This document shows, piece after piece, positions 4,717-27,934 of a stretch of DNA of 39,199 nucleotides. Below the pieces are notes generated by a model. That model was not told the DNA's origin, did not search any database, and was given only the letters and a program-made list of their open reading frames with translations. The stretch spans positions 1-39,199 of the forward strand of contig CAMGDG010000006.1 of NCBI GenBank assembly GCA_946041635.1, written 5' to 3'. The first letter of the stretch is position 1. Each line of letters opens with the position of its first letter. The translations under genes were made by a program, and so were the position numbers. This DNA is from an uncultured Clostridia bacterium. Lineage in GTDB: Bacteria; Bacillota; Clostridia; Oscillospirales; Acutalibacteraceae.

Positions 4717-4801
4717 GCGGGTATGGTGGAATTGGCAGACACGCAAGATTTAGGATCTTGTGCCGAGAGGTGTACAGGTTCGACCCCTGCTACCCGCACC
4801 A
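4717..4801 (+). tRNA. tRNA-Leu (anticodon UAG)
   Basis: An 85-nt class II tRNA. The acceptor GCGGGTA pairs with TACCCGC, and discriminator A and CCA are encoded. The anticodon stem CAAGA/TCTTG encloses TTTAGGA, giving anticodon TAG, which reads CUN codons. The extended variable arm TGCCGAGAGGTGT is typical of leucine tRNA. The T arm contains GGTTCGACCCC. Confidence 0.98.
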
Positions 4802-4803
4802 GA

Positions 4804-4844
4804 AAAGAAACCGCTTTTGTCTATCAGACAAAGGCGGTTTCTTT
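4804..4844 (+). terminator. Rho-independent terminator of tRNA-Leu
   Basis: Starting just after the tRNA CCA, a nearly perfect 19-bp stem (4804-4822 with 4826-4844, loop ATC) built around GAAACCGC...GTCT ends in TTTCTTTT. Its 3' arm runs directly into the 19-bp direct repeat at 4836-4854. Confidence 0.9.
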
Positions 4845-4854
4845 TCAACGAAAT
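4836..4854 (+). repeat. 19-bp direct repeat, copy 1
   Basis: GGTTTCTTTTCAACGAAAT occurs here and again, exactly, at 5523-5541. Each copy immediately precedes a modular palindromic repeat. The first half is also the 3' arm and T-run of the tRNA-Leu terminator. Confidence 0.85.
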
Positions 4855-5019
4855 TTGCCCTGACGGGCAAATGAAATAGCTCCGCTGTGAAATATTTACT
4901 TCGTAAATGTGAAATATTCGCTGACGCGAATGTAGACAAATTTCATTTCACATTGCGGCAAAGACGCAATATTTCACAATGACCGCAGGTCATTATTTCA
5001 CATCCGAAGGATATTTCAC
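4854..5019. repeat. Modular palindromic repeat (fishbone element), full copy
   Basis: Seven short hairpins are strung on 6-7-base linkers. In the left half the linkers read TGAAAT or GTGAAAT (near 4872, 4887, 4909); in the right half they read the reverse complement ATTTCAC (4945, 4971, 4995, 5013). The hairpins are TTTGCCC/GGGCAAA (4854-4871), AGC/GCT (4878-4886), ATTTAC/GTAAAT (4894-4908), ATTCGC/GCGAAT (4916-4931), ATTGCG/CGCAAT (4952-4970), AATGACC/GGTCATT (4978-4994) and ATCC/GGAT (5002-5012). The whole element is therefore a large dyad whose linkers can pair while each arm carries side hairpins. I do not recognise a named family. It fills the gap between tRNA-Leu and the VOC gene, where there is no coding sequence. 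Confidence 0.85.
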
Positions 5020-5048
5020 TTCACAATCCGTCCTTTCTGCTGTATAAT
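5020..5048 (+). promoter_or_regulatory. Putative sigma-A promoter of the VOC gene
   Basis: TTCACA (5020-5025), 17 bases, then TATAAT (5043-5048) preceded by TG (extended -10). The -35 hexamer abuts the last linker of the palindromic repeat, so the repeat edge appears to supply part of this promoter (inference). Confidence 0.65.
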
Positions 5049-5085: not shown

Positions 5086-5448
5086 ATGAAATACAAAGGA
5101 ACGCTTATAGTTGTTAAAGATTGTAACCGTGCGTTAAAGTTCTATAGTGATATGTTTGGATTTCAACTGCTTCAAGACAACGATGGGAATATGGAATTGA
5201 CGAATAATTTATATTTACAGGAATCGAGATACTGGGAACAATTCACAAAAAGAAGTGTAATTCCAAACAGTAATCAGTCTGAGCTGTATTTTGAAGAGCC
5301 CAATATAGAGCAATTTGTAGAGCGTCTTGAAACACTTTACCCTGAAATCGAATATGTCAATCACCTGATGACACACAGTTGGGGACAAAAGGTGGTCAGA
5401 TTCTACGATTTGGATGGTAACTTAATTGAAGTTGGAACACCGATATAA
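5086..5448 (+). CDS. VOC-superfamily (glyoxalase/bleomycin-resistance-like) protein
   Basis: A 120-residue single-module vicinal-oxygen-chelate fold protein. The pattern GTLIVVKDCNRALKFYSDMFG (5-25) followed by the C-terminal VVRFYDLDGNLIEVGTP (103-119) is the characteristic beta-alpha-beta-beta-beta pair of this superfamily. The first usual metal-ligand position (beta-1) is not His or Glu here, while Glu115 is kept, so metal dependence is doubtful. The superfamily includes lyases, dioxygenases and drug-binding proteins; no specific substrate can be assigned. The ATG at 5086 is chosen because GAGGAG (5073-5078) sits 7 bases upstream; an earlier in-frame TTG at 5068 has no such site. The gene stands alone, flanked by palindromic repeats and 19-bp direct repeats, which suggests acquisition as a small cassette (inference). 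Confidence 0.85.
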   Translation: MKYKGTLIVVKDCNRALKFYSDMFGFQLLQDNDGNMELTNNLYLQESRYWEQFTKRSVIPNSNQSELYFEEPNIEQFVERLETLYPEIEYVNHLMTHSWGQKVVRFYDLDGNLIEVGTPI

Positions 5449-5522
5449 TCAACAAATTCCAATTTGTCGAACAGAGCAGTCACACTACTTTTGCTTACTT
5501 TTACCTCTATTCTGCTCCGTTT

Positions 5523-5541
5523 GGTTTCTTTTCAACGAAAT
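5523..5541 (+). repeat. 19-bp direct repeat, copy 2
   Basis: Exact second copy of the sequence at 4836-4854, placed 75 bases after the VOC stop. The bases between, 5449-5522, hold no gene; GAGCAG at 5474-5479 and CTGCTC at 5512-5517 could pair across a long loop ahead of T-rich sequence, possibly a weak terminator for the VOC gene. Confidence 0.85.
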
Positions 5542-5641
5542 AAATCCCTTGCGGGATTTGTGAAATGCTCTCCGGGCGTGAAATATGCCTGTGTCATATG
5601 AGGGAACGAGTTTTATTTCATATTGCGGCAGAAATATTTCA
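5542..5641. repeat. Modular palindromic repeat, degenerate copy
   Basis: Same architecture as the element at 4854-5019 but eroded: hairpin AAATCCC/GGGATTT (5542-5559), linker GTGAAAT (5560-5566), weak hairpin GCTC/GGGC (5567-5577), linker GTGAAAT (5578-5584), then inverted linkers TATTTCAT near 5614-5621 and 5635-5642 around ATTGCGGCAG. The stretch 5449-5696 contains no credible gene. Confidence 0.7.
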
Positions 5642-11589: not shown

Positions 11590-12719
11590 TGAAATACAAA
11601 CGGATTTTTCTAATTGTGCTTGACAGCTTCGGTATCGGCAACGCTCCCGATGCCGAAATGTTCAATGATACAGGCGCAAACACACTTAAAAGTATATCAG
11701 CCTCCCCCTTTTTCAAAATTGACAGTATGAAAAATTTAGGCTTATGCAATATAGATACTGTTGATTATCTTAACAAAGTTAAATCGCCGTCAAGTAAATT
11801 CGGAGCGCTGACAGAGCTTTCCGCAGGCAAGGATACAACAACAGGTCATTTTGAAATTGCGGGTATTATCTCAAAAGAGCCCTTTCCCACTTTCCCCGAA
11901 GGCTTTCCCGATGAAGTAATAAAGGAATTTGAAAAGCAAACGGGGTGCGGTGTGCTTTGCAACAAGCCCTATTCAGGCACAAAAGTCATCGCAGATTACG
12001 GCGAAGAGCATTTAAAAACAGGCAAGCTGATTGTTTATACCTCAGCCGACAGCGTTTTTCAAATTGCGGCGCACACGGATATTGTACCCCTCGAAAAGCT
12101 TTATGAATATTGCAGCATTGCAAGGAAAATTCTCACAGGTAAATATGCCGTGGGCAGAGTAATTGCAAGGCCGTTTAACGGAGAGCACCCGTTTGTGCGT
12201 ACCGCCGACAGACATGATTTTTCCGTTGAGCCGCCCGCCGAAACAATGCTTGATAGATTAAAATTCAACGGATACGATGTAATTTCGGTAGGTAAAATTG
12301 CAGATATTTTCGCTCACAGAGGTATAACGGAGGAATTCCTCTCACATTCCAATGCGGAGGGTATGAATATCACATACAAAATGCTTGAAAAAGATTTTAA
12401 AGGACTTTGCTTTGTGAATTTGGTTGATTTTGATATGCTTTACGGTCACAGGCGTGATATTGACGGTTATGCAAAAGCAATAAGTGAATTTGATAATTGG
12501 CTGAGTGTCTTTACACCGAAAATGCAAGATGACGATTTGTTAATTATTACTGCCGACCACGGATGTGACCCTGCTTACAGCGGAACAGACCACACCCGTG
12601 AGCAAGTTCCGCTTCTCATATATTCAAAAGGCATTGAGCCGCATAATTTAGGCATTATAAACGGTTATAATTATATCAGTAATGTTATCTTGGATAATTT
12701 TGCAATACAAGGTGATTGA
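11589..12719 (+). CDS. deoB: Phosphopentomutase
   Basis: Converts (deoxy)ribose-1-phosphate to the 5-phosphate, linking nucleoside phosphorolysis to DeoC. A 376-residue alkaline-phosphatase-superfamily metalloenzyme with the DeoB cap domain. Metal-site motifs visible are IVLDSFGIGNAPDA near the N-terminus (Asp, di-Mn site), GKDTTTGHFEIAG (phosphorylated Thr region), DMLYGHRRD and ITADHGCDPAYSGTDHTREQVPLL at the C-terminus. The ATG at 11589 overlaps the deoC TGA; a TTG one codon earlier is less likely. The ribosome site is weak, fitting translational coupling to deoC. Confidence 0.97.
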   Translation: MKYKRIFLIVLDSFGIGNAPDAEMFNDTGANTLKSISASPFFKIDSMKNLGLCNIDTVDYLNKVKSPSSKFGALTELSAGKDTTTGHFEIAGIISKEPFPTFPEGFPDEVIKEFEKQTGCGVLCNKPYSGTKVIADYGEEHLKTGKLIVYTSADSVFQIAAHTDIVPLEKLYEYCSIARKILTGKYAVGRVIARPFNGEHPFVRTADRHDFSVEPPAETMLDRLKFNGYDVISVGKIADIFAHRGITEEFLSHSNAEGMNITYKMLEKDFKGLCFVNLVDFDMLYGHRRDIDGYAKAISEFDNWLSVFTPKMQDDDLLIITADHGCDPAYSGTDHTREQVPLLIYSKGIEPHNLGIINGYNYISNVILDNFAIQGD

Positions 12720-26404: not shown

Positions 26405-27934
26405 TTGAACGCATTAGAATTAAAAAACGTAACTAAAAAATTCGGTAAAGTCGTTGCCAACAAAAATGTAAATCTAACGGTTAAATCCGGAGAAATTCTT
26501 GCTGTACTCGGTGAAAATGGCAGCGGCAAAACTACTCTTATGAATATGATTGCGGGTATTTACTACCCCGACGAGGGAGAAATCTTTGTAAACGGAAATC
26601 CCGTTACCATTGCTTCTCCCAAAGATGCTTTTGATTTACACATCGGTATGATTCATCAGCATTTTAAGCTTGTGGATATTTTTACTGCTACTGAAAATAT
26701 TGTTTTAGGTATTAAAGATAAAAAGCGTTTCAACCTTAAAGATGCTGAAAAAAAGGTTATTGAAATTTCTTCTAAATACGGATTTGAAATTGACCCGAAG
26801 AAGAAAATATACGAAATGTCTGTTTCCGAAAAGCAAACCGTTGAAATTGTAAAGGTTCTTTACAGAGGAGCAGACATACTGATTTTGGACGAGCCCACTG
26901 CGGTGCTTACTCCCCAGGAAACCGAAAAGCTTTTCAAAGTGCTTAAAAAAATGAGAGATGACGGAAAATCCATCATCATTATCACTCATAAAATGCACGA
27001 GGTTTTGTCTGTTTCCGACAGAGTTACAATTCTGCGCCGCGGTGAATATATAGATACTGTTGCAACCGCCGAAACAAACGAGGCAGAGCTTACAGAAATG
27101 ATGGTCGGCAAAAGGGTATCTCTCAATATTGACCGATCCGAGCCGAAAAATCCTGTTGACAGACTTGTTGTTAACCATCTCAATCTTAAAAATTCCGAAA
27201 ATGTAAAAATACTCGATGATGTTTCGTTCACAGCAAAAAGCGGCGAAATTCTCGGTATTGCGGGAATTGCGGGAAGCGGTCAAAAGGAACTGCTGGAATC
27301 AATCGCAGGTCTTCACACTTCTGCCCAGGGCGAGATAACATACATCGACCCTCAGAATAAGGAAATTAACCTTATGGAGAAAACTCCCGTTCAGATAAGA
27401 GAGCTTGGCGTTCGACTCTCTTTTGTCCCCGAGGACAGACTCGGAATGGGACTTGTAGGAAATATGGACATCATTGATAATATGATGCTCCGCAGTTACA
27501 AAAAAGGAAAATCCATGTTCCTTGACAGACAGCCCCCGAAAAAATTGGCAAAATCAATTATTGATGAGCTTGAAGTTGTTACTCCGAGCGCTACAACACC
27601 TGTCAGACGGCTCTCCGGCGGTAATGTTCAAAAGGTACTTGTCGGCCGTGAAATTGCTTCTTCCCCCACAGTTTTGATGGCCGCATACCCCGTTCGCGGA
27701 CTTGATATAAACTCATCTTACACAATCTACAATCTTCTTAACGAGCAAAAGGAAAACGGTGTAGCTGTTATTTTTGTAGGTGAAGATTTGGATGTTTTAC
27801 TTGAACTGTGTGACAGAATACTTGTTATCAGTTCGGGTACCGTTTCCGGAATTGTTGACGGACGAACCGCAACCAAAGAGGGCGTCGGCCTCTTAATGAC
27901 AAAGGTGAAAGGAGCAAAAGAGAATGAAGAATAA
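26405..27934 (+). CDS. Nucleoside ABC transporter ATP-binding protein (double ABC domain)
   Basis: 509-residue ATPase with two fused ABC domains, as in RbsA and NupO. First half: Walker A GENGSGKTT, signature region MSVSEKQTVEI, Walker B ILILDEPTAVLTPQE. Second half: GIAGSGQKELLESIAGL, LSGGNVQKVLVGREI and VLMAAYPVRGLD; the second Walker B lacks the usual Asp-Glu pair, which is normal for this family. The start is the TTG at 26405, 8 bases after AGGGGG; an in-frame TTG at 26378 lies inside the upstream hairpin. Its end overlaps the first permease by 11 bases. Confidence 0.94.
   Translation: MNALELKNVTKKFGKVVANKNVNLTVKSGEILAVLGENGSGKTTLMNMIAGIYYPDEGEIFVNGNPVTIASPKDAFDLHIGMIHQHFKLVDIFTATENIVLGIKDKKRFNLKDAEKKVIEISSKYGFEIDPKKKIYEMSVSEKQTVEIVKVLYRGADILILDEPTAVLTPQETEKLFKVLKKMRDDGKSIIIITHKMHEVLSVSDRVTILRRGEYIDTVATAETNEAELTEMMVGKRVSLNIDRSEPKNPVDRLVVNHLNLKNSENVKILDDVSFTAKSGEILGIAGIAGSGQKELLESIAGLHTSAQGEITYIDPQNKEINLMEKTPVQIRELGVRLSFVPEDRLGMGLVGNMDIIDNMMLRSYKKGKSMFLDRQPPKKLAKSIIDELEVVTPSATTPVRRLSGGNVQKVLVGREIASSPTVLMAAYPVRGLDINSSYTIYNLLNEQKENGVAVIFVGEDLDVLLELCDRILVISSGTVSGIVDGRTATKEGVGLLMTKVKGAKENEE

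Follow-up and report, generated by a model that had tools for sequence, protein, structure and literature searches.

In the REP/BIME family, a short tag is joined to a palindrome in inverted arrangement and copies are scattered between genes; the palindromes within one REP element do not differ freely. CRISPR arrays are built from repeats of some 21-48 bp with non-palindromic spacers. Gut-1 (RF01706), an orphan RNA of Rfam, was placed among the likely noncoding RNAs and is listed as 'Human gut only' in the table of Weinberg et al. 2010 (PMC2864571). Proteins of the family PF05635 (S23p, the 23S rRNA intervening-sequence protein) are encoded in intervening sequences (IVS), short selfish elements inside 23S rRNA genes that are cut out by RNase III. 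According to PMC4990558 these proteins have no known function, and in the Coxiella 23S IVS tandem heptamers (GACAGAT) stand just upstream of the S23p start (PMC4990558). The family is homologous to Avd, the reverse-transcriptase partner in diversity-generating retroelements (PMC10053308), and a reference title in PMC10053308 describes the 2gsc protein as five four-helix bundles.

The window analysed here, a 39,199-nt stretch of DNA from an uncultured Clostridia bacterium of the Acutalibacteraceae (contig CAMGDG010000006.1 of GCA_946041635.1), contains one copy of a dispersed element of about 175 nt, the fishbone, whose left part is already in Rfam as Gut-1. The complete element occupies 4845..5019 on the plus strand, on the evidence of sequence, fold and a tag-hairpin finder. 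A tRNA-Leu gene (anticodon tag; 4717..4801, plus strand; ARAGORN and Rfam tRNA model) with a CCA encoded at 4799-4801 precedes it, and directly 3' of this CCA a terminator-like hairpin, composed of an A-tract, a stem and a T-tract, was recognised by eye (4803..4845, plus strand). This hairpin is probably the left end of the mobile unit. An initial annotation, made from the window's letters, had placed the element at 4854..5019; the end was retained, and the start was moved to about 4845, with the terminator-like hairpin and tRNA-Leu directly before it.

The seven short hairpins it had described were all located on the plus strand, with stems of 3-8 bp: H1 (8 bp, 4853..4872), H2 (only 3 bp, 4878..4886), H3 (6 bp, 4894..4908), H4 (6 bp, 4916..4931), H5 (6 bp with a 7-nt loop, 4952..4970), H6 (7 bp, 4978..4994) and H7 (4 bp, 5002..5012). 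Covariation supports H5 and also a closing stem, P1, in which GAAATTTG (4850..4857, plus strand) pairs with CAAATTTC at the centre of the element (4937..4944, plus strand); the 5' strand of H1 has this same segment, 4937-4944, as an alternative partner. The linkers had been given as GTGAAAT on the left and ATTTCAC on the right. This is exact at two left sites (4887 and 4909) and four right sites (4945, 4971, 4995 and 5013), but the first linker reads ATGAAAT (4871), and at the left end the sequence is CGAAAT (4849). The left half matches Gut-1 at 62.5 bits, against a gathering threshold of 50 (4846..4920, plus strand), and the right half gives a match on the opposite strand at 48.6 bits, below gathering (4940..5021, minus strand). 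Downstream are a glyoxalase-like gene (5086..5448, plus strand; PF12681, E 1.4e-25), which is not the PF05635 partner gene described below, and a second, truncated copy (5533..5609, plus strand; Gut-1, 54.5 bits). Beside this second copy, the stretch CTTTTGCTTACTTTTACCTCTATTCTGCTCCGTTT (5488-5522) has a close match that adjoins an element in another genome (locus L032).

Both strands were folded, as the initial annotation had suggested. The strand from 4830 to 5040 folds at -63.9 kcal/mol (z -5.6; none of 200 shuffles as good), and the opposite strand over the fishbone gives z -5.1. A generic, linker-agnostic finder for a tag, a hairpin and an inverted tag returned the fishbone as its sole match in the window; ten windows resampled with a first-order Markov model gave no match. 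The window fishbone is therefore beyond chance, since its fold beats the shuffles and the resampled windows yield none. The 7-nt linkers and palindromic spacers rule out a CRISPR array, and the annotation's statement that the element is neither CRISPR, nor a tandem repeat, nor a simple REP was upheld. Its further expectation, that the modules are dispersed in relatives, agrees with the distribution of Gut-1, which was matched in 90 of 200 genomes of the family (71 above the curated cut-off) and in 81 of 197 genomes of the order (68 above the cut-off). Among 14 control genomes, a single match, in E. coli, was found, and it fell below the cut-off. Matches are many per genome, up to at least 22 in one. 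The window's own genome has 11, several of which (C6, C2, C20) form pairs of plus and minus arms; further copies there carry different words, such as TGATATA and GTGATAT.

The pairing of several matches in this genome as opposite arms shows Gut-1 to be one arm of a mirrored element. The 77 positions of the Gut-1 model (Weinberg et al. 2010, PMC2864571) correspond to the left part, H1-H3 with GUGAAAU linkers. Unlike the fishbone, the model stops before H4. It does not cover the partner strand of P1, the inverted second half or linker words other than its own, nor does it take in the surroundings of tRNA and terminator or the gene of the partner protein. No description of the unit as a whole, or of the mirrored right half, the tRNA setting or the partner gene, was found in the open-access literature searched. 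The Gut-1 identity of a part, the tRNA 3' end, the terminator and the four-helix-bundle gene all lie outside the picture drawn by the initial annotation.

In relatives, the fishbone architecture stands directly upstream of a gene for a four-helix-bundle protein of the family PF05635. To the right of the fishbone there is often a promoter-like sequence (by eye) and then a gene, several of which are PF05635. The partner proteins are about 115 aa long, all 19 that were aligned match PF05635, and their homologues of known structure, 2rld and 2gsc, have 5 chains each. An automatic detector found a fishbone upstream of 53 of 123 distinct PF05635 proteins (127 protein matches, of which 2 were dropped because the motif was absent and the rest merged to distinct sequences) and in none of the shuffled upstream regions. 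Because 14 of these 123 rows were loci obtained via Gut-1, the detection was repeated on 80 loci fetched from genome contigs by protein alignment alone. These were the best 80 of 578 relatives, a sample that leans towards the GTGAAAT clade, and 75 of them had a fishbone directly upstream (automatic detection). Four of the remaining five have fishbone parts by eye, and the fifth, L288, has an array in the other order. Six relatives are on viral contigs, of which five were read; L322 has a GTGAAAT fishbone and in L323 none was seen. At the level of genomes, Gut-1 and PF05635 occur together in 74 of the 200, Gut-1 alone in 16, PF05635 alone in 21 and neither in 89 (odds ratio 19.6). No PF05635 gene was found in the window's own genome, which is 83% complete and is one of the 16. 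Taken together, the array and the gene almost certainly form a partnership within one full unit, as far as comparison of sequences can tell. The order of the unit is a terminator-like hairpin, an inverted array of a heptamer specific to the element with small hairpins in the gaps, a promoter-like sequence (by eye) and the PF05635 gene.

The initial annotation had also proposed that the linkers of the two halves can pair. The halves are mostly reverse complements, though the word itself differs between clades: GTGAAAT, GTGAAGC, GTGATGT and GTTATATT were all seen. Upstream of PF05635 genes, the fishbone words include GTGATAT, GTGAAGC, GTGATGT, GTTATATT, GTTTTATT, GCTAAATT, GAATTG and ATCGTT; in most cases the right half reverse-complements the left, and L149 and L160 have a left half only. 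Left and right tags were also found independently in 200 element regions, 75 of which gave no pair of tag chains. In the other 125, the two tags were identical in 2 and, when a loose match of 3 nt sufficed, reverse complements in 106. A strict match (at least 4 nt), the one to which the control with redealt tags was applied, gave 67 against 49 in that control, a small margin because most elements share one word. In one genome (G174; L079, L082-L084, L086-L089), many near-identical GTGATAT left halves are mixed with right halves of other words (CAATTC), an arrangement of either mosaics or tandem arrays of half fishbones.

The words follow the protein tree. In a tree of 123 proteins, built by a quick method without bootstrap, a single 70-row clade (SH-aLRT 95) holds all 64 labelled fishbone owners. 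On this tree the linker class requires 15 changes against a shuffled mean of 59.7, with none of 200 shuffles as low. This comparison overstates the significance, because the elements share ancestry and near-copies make any label cluster; near-copies do not account for separate clades with separate words. Fifty of the 64 labels were also assigned automatically and 14 by eye; at L224, L232 and L238 the detector fired and the label by eye was 'none'. One discordance was seen, L218, whose protein lies in the GAAAT clade and whose word is GAAGT. As read from these sequences, heptamer word and protein evolve together.

The unit is found mostly behind tRNA or tmRNA genes, in the same direction, in the loci compared. 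Among 56 distinct oriented elements, from loci taken as best matches and not at random, 33 have their start 29-45 nt past a tRNA or tmRNA gene of the same strand, and 11 more have it at 222-319 nt; those of the 11 that were read have another repeat in between. A same-strand tRNA or tmRNA lies within 420 nt upstream of the gene in 55 of 73 named loci, representing 15 kinds of RNA (best 80 of 578, 7 of them too short to judge), and in 39 of 60 labelled units (4 too short). The other 18 of the 73 named loci and 21 of the 60 units have no tRNA in reach, and a tRNA on the opposite strand only was seen in none of either set. For other PF05635 genes, the counts were 13 of 54 on the same strand and 1 on the opposite strand.

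Near-identical copies at unrelated sites, a mark of MITEs and transposable elements, are present: two elements that are almost identical over 180 nt (L012 and L042), both running to contig ends, lie behind tRNA-Tyr and tRNA-Ser of the same genome, G176. At the orthologous tRNA-Leu locus in the window's genus, seven relatives were caught by a pattern. Four (L104, L105, L107 and L109) have neither the fishbone nor a second repeat in the roughly 240 nt viewed, L108 has a TGATAT-type remnant, and L106 and L110 have the second repeat. A tmRNA locus gives a further comparison, with 89% identity over the tmRNA region between genomes G098 and G212. The former has the whole unit and the latter its own terminator and a tRNA (Val by eye), and homology resumes 17 nt past the gene's stop codon. 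This bounds the unit, on the alignment of these two genomes, at about 0.6 kb, a length with no room for a recombinase or a reverse transcriptase. The locus is not a clean insertion, because the other tRNA is missing too, and no insertion with a target-site duplication was caught. The fishbone unit probably moves or is exchanged, a view well supported because near-identical copies lie behind different tRNAs and orthologous loci either lack the unit or hold a different type.

The idea of a classic integrase that targets tRNA genes and leaves attL/attR was set aside, since no general downstream repeat of the tRNA 3' end was seen in 42 rows. The best local alignment within 1.5 kb downstream did not rise in any row above the 95th percentile obtained with mismatched tRNAs, a value that one row reached exactly, and L035 is the one exception with a downstream copy. 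The terminators partly move with the element and partly do not: those of near-identical elements often differ, and in some cases the element has an identical or similar hairpin at more than one kind of tRNA gene. In this comparison of 115 rows, 21 were trimmed wrongly, which makes some identities too low; at least 56 of the 115 start GAA directly after CCA.

Other repeats share these surroundings. The second repeat, about 200 nt long, lies behind tRNA and tmRNA genes and has hairpins of its own (CAGTCC..GGACTG in several); after it, in most cases, roughly the final 17-21 nt of the tRNA appear again. It was seen at L106 and L110 (tRNA-Leu), L345-L348 (tmRNA), L017, L024, L030 and L041 and in the window's own genome on C2 at about 26600-26760, and it seems to be an element in its own right at tRNA ends, one that does produce a duplication. 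To the right of some fishbones, and before unrelated genes, stands an array of about four to five ATCGTT words at a spacing of about 20 bp (own genome, C20 at about 12000-12085; L022, L025, L039); it was rejected as a part of the unit because the genes after it are unrelated. A right flank around GAGTTCGAATTCATACGCAAAAACGGCAAAAATATCTTTTTTGTAGCCCAT, containing a tRNA T-loop-like TTCGAA, is common to elements in different genera (L013, L014, L017, L024, L048, L091).

That the stems vary with pairing kept, as the initial annotation had claimed, was examined in a survey of 200 element regions, comprising the 80 named loci (best 80 of 578), 64 labelled proteins and 56 Gut-1-selected elements, with overlaps kept. 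Of 607 distinct modules, 568 were hairpins, and 274 different stems were counted among them. Stem positions are Watson-Crick with their own partner in 95.4% of cases and in 47.1% with the partner redealt, and 473 of the 568 hairpins have no mismatch. Thirty-four of the 80 loci (best 80 of 578) that fit a strict pattern were aligned with the window copy (35 elements, alignment A2). In this alignment both-side changes occur in 7 of the 11 pairs of P1, which is 98.2% paired, and in 6 of the 6 pairs of H5, which is 86.2% paired; the joint covariation score of P1 and H5 is 0.583 against 0.179 when shuffled (0 of 500). H1 is 96.2% paired, also with both-side changes in 6 of 6 pairs. Because H1 and P1 use the same 5' strand, covariation links three strands, and only one of the two helices can form at a time. 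Halves and stems are, in the sequences surveyed, kept complementary. The two outcomes that the initial annotation had named as speaking against it, an absence of further copies and stems without compensatory changes, were both looked for and neither occurred.

We consider it reasonably likely that the window fishbone represents, as an isolated copy, a small selfish element composed of a terminator, a heptamer/hairpin array and the gene of a heptamer-recognising four-helix-bundle protein. The protein, pentameric in solved relatives, would bind the heptamers displayed by a folded strand, and many heptamers would give avidity; binding of the heptamers by the four-helix-bundle protein is somewhat favoured. 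H1 and P1, as alternative helices, could switch the array between two folds. A unit carrying its own terminator would do little harm on landing behind a gene. The window copy, being without the gene, would be either moved by relatives or a relic.

An alternative with a minor share of the probability is that the element is a structured noncoding RNA, Gut-1 as described, read through from the tRNA operon and performing a cellular job in cis or in trans; the neighbouring gene would then be a regulator or a target, and nothing would be mobile. The strong covariation agrees with this reading, as does the placement of Gut-1 with likely noncoding RNAs by Weinberg et al. 2010 (PMC2864571). The wobble pairs bear on it in both directions. 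Stems contain 32 G.T against 8 A.C (right half 29 against 4, left half 3 against 4). At the foot of P1, 19 elements have G-C, 11 G-U, 3 U-G and 2 U-A, and none has A-C. This G.T excess and the wobbles at the P1 foot point to folding of the top strand. However, the remainder of P1 has 5 A-C/C-A cells beside 2 further U-G, and G.T makes up only 1.0% of stem pairs, far below the 4.6% (27/588) of tRNA acceptor stems and the 9.3% (39/420) of T-arms at the same loci. An RNA rather than a DNA intermediate is thus possible, at somewhat less than an even chance. Further against a noncoding RNA, the terminator-like hairpin separates the array from the tRNA with little promoter room there (by eye), the promoter-like sequence of the partner gene lies beyond the array (by eye), some congeners have the tRNA locus without the element, and matches are many per genome.

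Mobility by other machinery was also weighed. Retro-mobility, which we regard as unlikely, and slightly more so than the noncoding RNA, builds on reverse-transcriptase template switching to CCA ends. A reverse transcriptase would copy the element RNA and then jump onto a mature tRNA or tmRNA at its CCA end. Recombination of the chimaeric cDNA into that gene would place the element directly behind the CCA of any tRNA in one orientation. The position close behind CCA, the many isotypes together with tmRNA, and the fixed orientation are what this would produce, and PF05635 proteins resemble Avd, the partner of a reverse transcriptase (PMC10053308). But RVT_1 has no genome-level association with Gut-1 (odds ratio 1.41, p 0.29), 9 of 11 units of the TATT class have no tRNA in reach upstream, and tRNA terminators may begin near CCA anyway. 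Although Avd is a homologue, the roughly 0.6-kb unit, as bounded at the one tmRNA locus, has no room for the reverse transcriptase, template or variable repeat of a diversity-generating retroelement, and no RVT_1 was found in the window's genome or in G098. It is improbable that the fishbone is a REP/BIME-like array of DNA palindromes moved by an IS200-like Y1 (RAYT) transposase, although the logic is the same, with a short tag beside a palindrome, inverted order, dispersal between genes and few wobble pairs. Y1_Tnp is not associated with Gut-1 at genome level (present in 46 of the 90 genomes that have Gut-1 and in 50 of the 110 that do not; odds ratio 1.25, p 0.48), the tags follow PF05635 proteins, the partner is a four-helix-bundle protein, the site behind tRNA genes is constant, and the palindromes differ freely within one fishbone. 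Most remote is a mutational by-product, in which template switching at hairpins makes perfect palindromes without selection; it fits stems that are almost perfect and vary fast, but leaves the complementarity of the halves, the agreement of the word with the protein tree and the constant gene and tRNA setting unexplained.

Upstream words were also examined in the wider family. For PF05635 genes outside the fishbone clade, the highest count of an upstream 6-mer averages 3.33 (n=55), compared with 2.37 for 211 other genes of the same loci, and inverted upstream arrays were found for 17 of these 55 genes; among other genes 8 of 176 had one, and among shuffles 4 of 275. These upstream words, together with the heptamers of the Coxiella IVS, suggest that PF05635 elements commonly bear an array of short words, and that in the fishbone branch hairpins came to stand between the heptamers. 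Short degenerate tandem words were seen directly upstream of non-fishbone PF05635 genes at many of L132-L145, L147, L150, L151, L153 and L158, and short tandem words lie upstream of PF05635 genes at the viral-contig loci L324-L326. In the portions of PMC4853749 and PMC4679880 that concern TAACTGA heptamers, no link to S23 or four-helix proteins was found.

The fishbone resembles the 23S rRNA IVS in its protein family, in being a short selfish element and, in the case of Coxiella, in its upstream heptamers. A PF05635/S23p gene accompanies the units in relatives but not the window copy. The two differ in location, since an IVS lies inside a 23S rRNA gene, whereas fishbone units are mostly behind tRNA genes and the window copy is behind tRNA-Leu. 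Two further differences are the promoter-like sequence that precedes the gene in fishbone units and the layout of the fishbone heptamers, which are inverted and have hairpins between them. We tentatively propose, at a little under even chances, a so far unrecognised class of PF05635 genes, each with its own upstream heptamer address array, often inverted, homing to the 3' ends of tRNA, tmRNA or other genes. Hairpins would stand between the heptamers in gut Clostridia, the 23S rRNA IVS would be the best-known branch and Gut-1 a fragment.

If this is true, PF05635/S23p proteins would gain a specific nucleic-acid partner and an orphan Rfam RNA would be explained. The heptamer-protein pairs across clades would be a ready-made specificity series, from a kind of mobile element with an address word readable from its own sequence and with tRNA 3' ends as landing sites. 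The pairing of the fishbone with the gene of a small protein, ring-forming by homology, suggests a kind of mobile element that has so far gone largely unrecognised.
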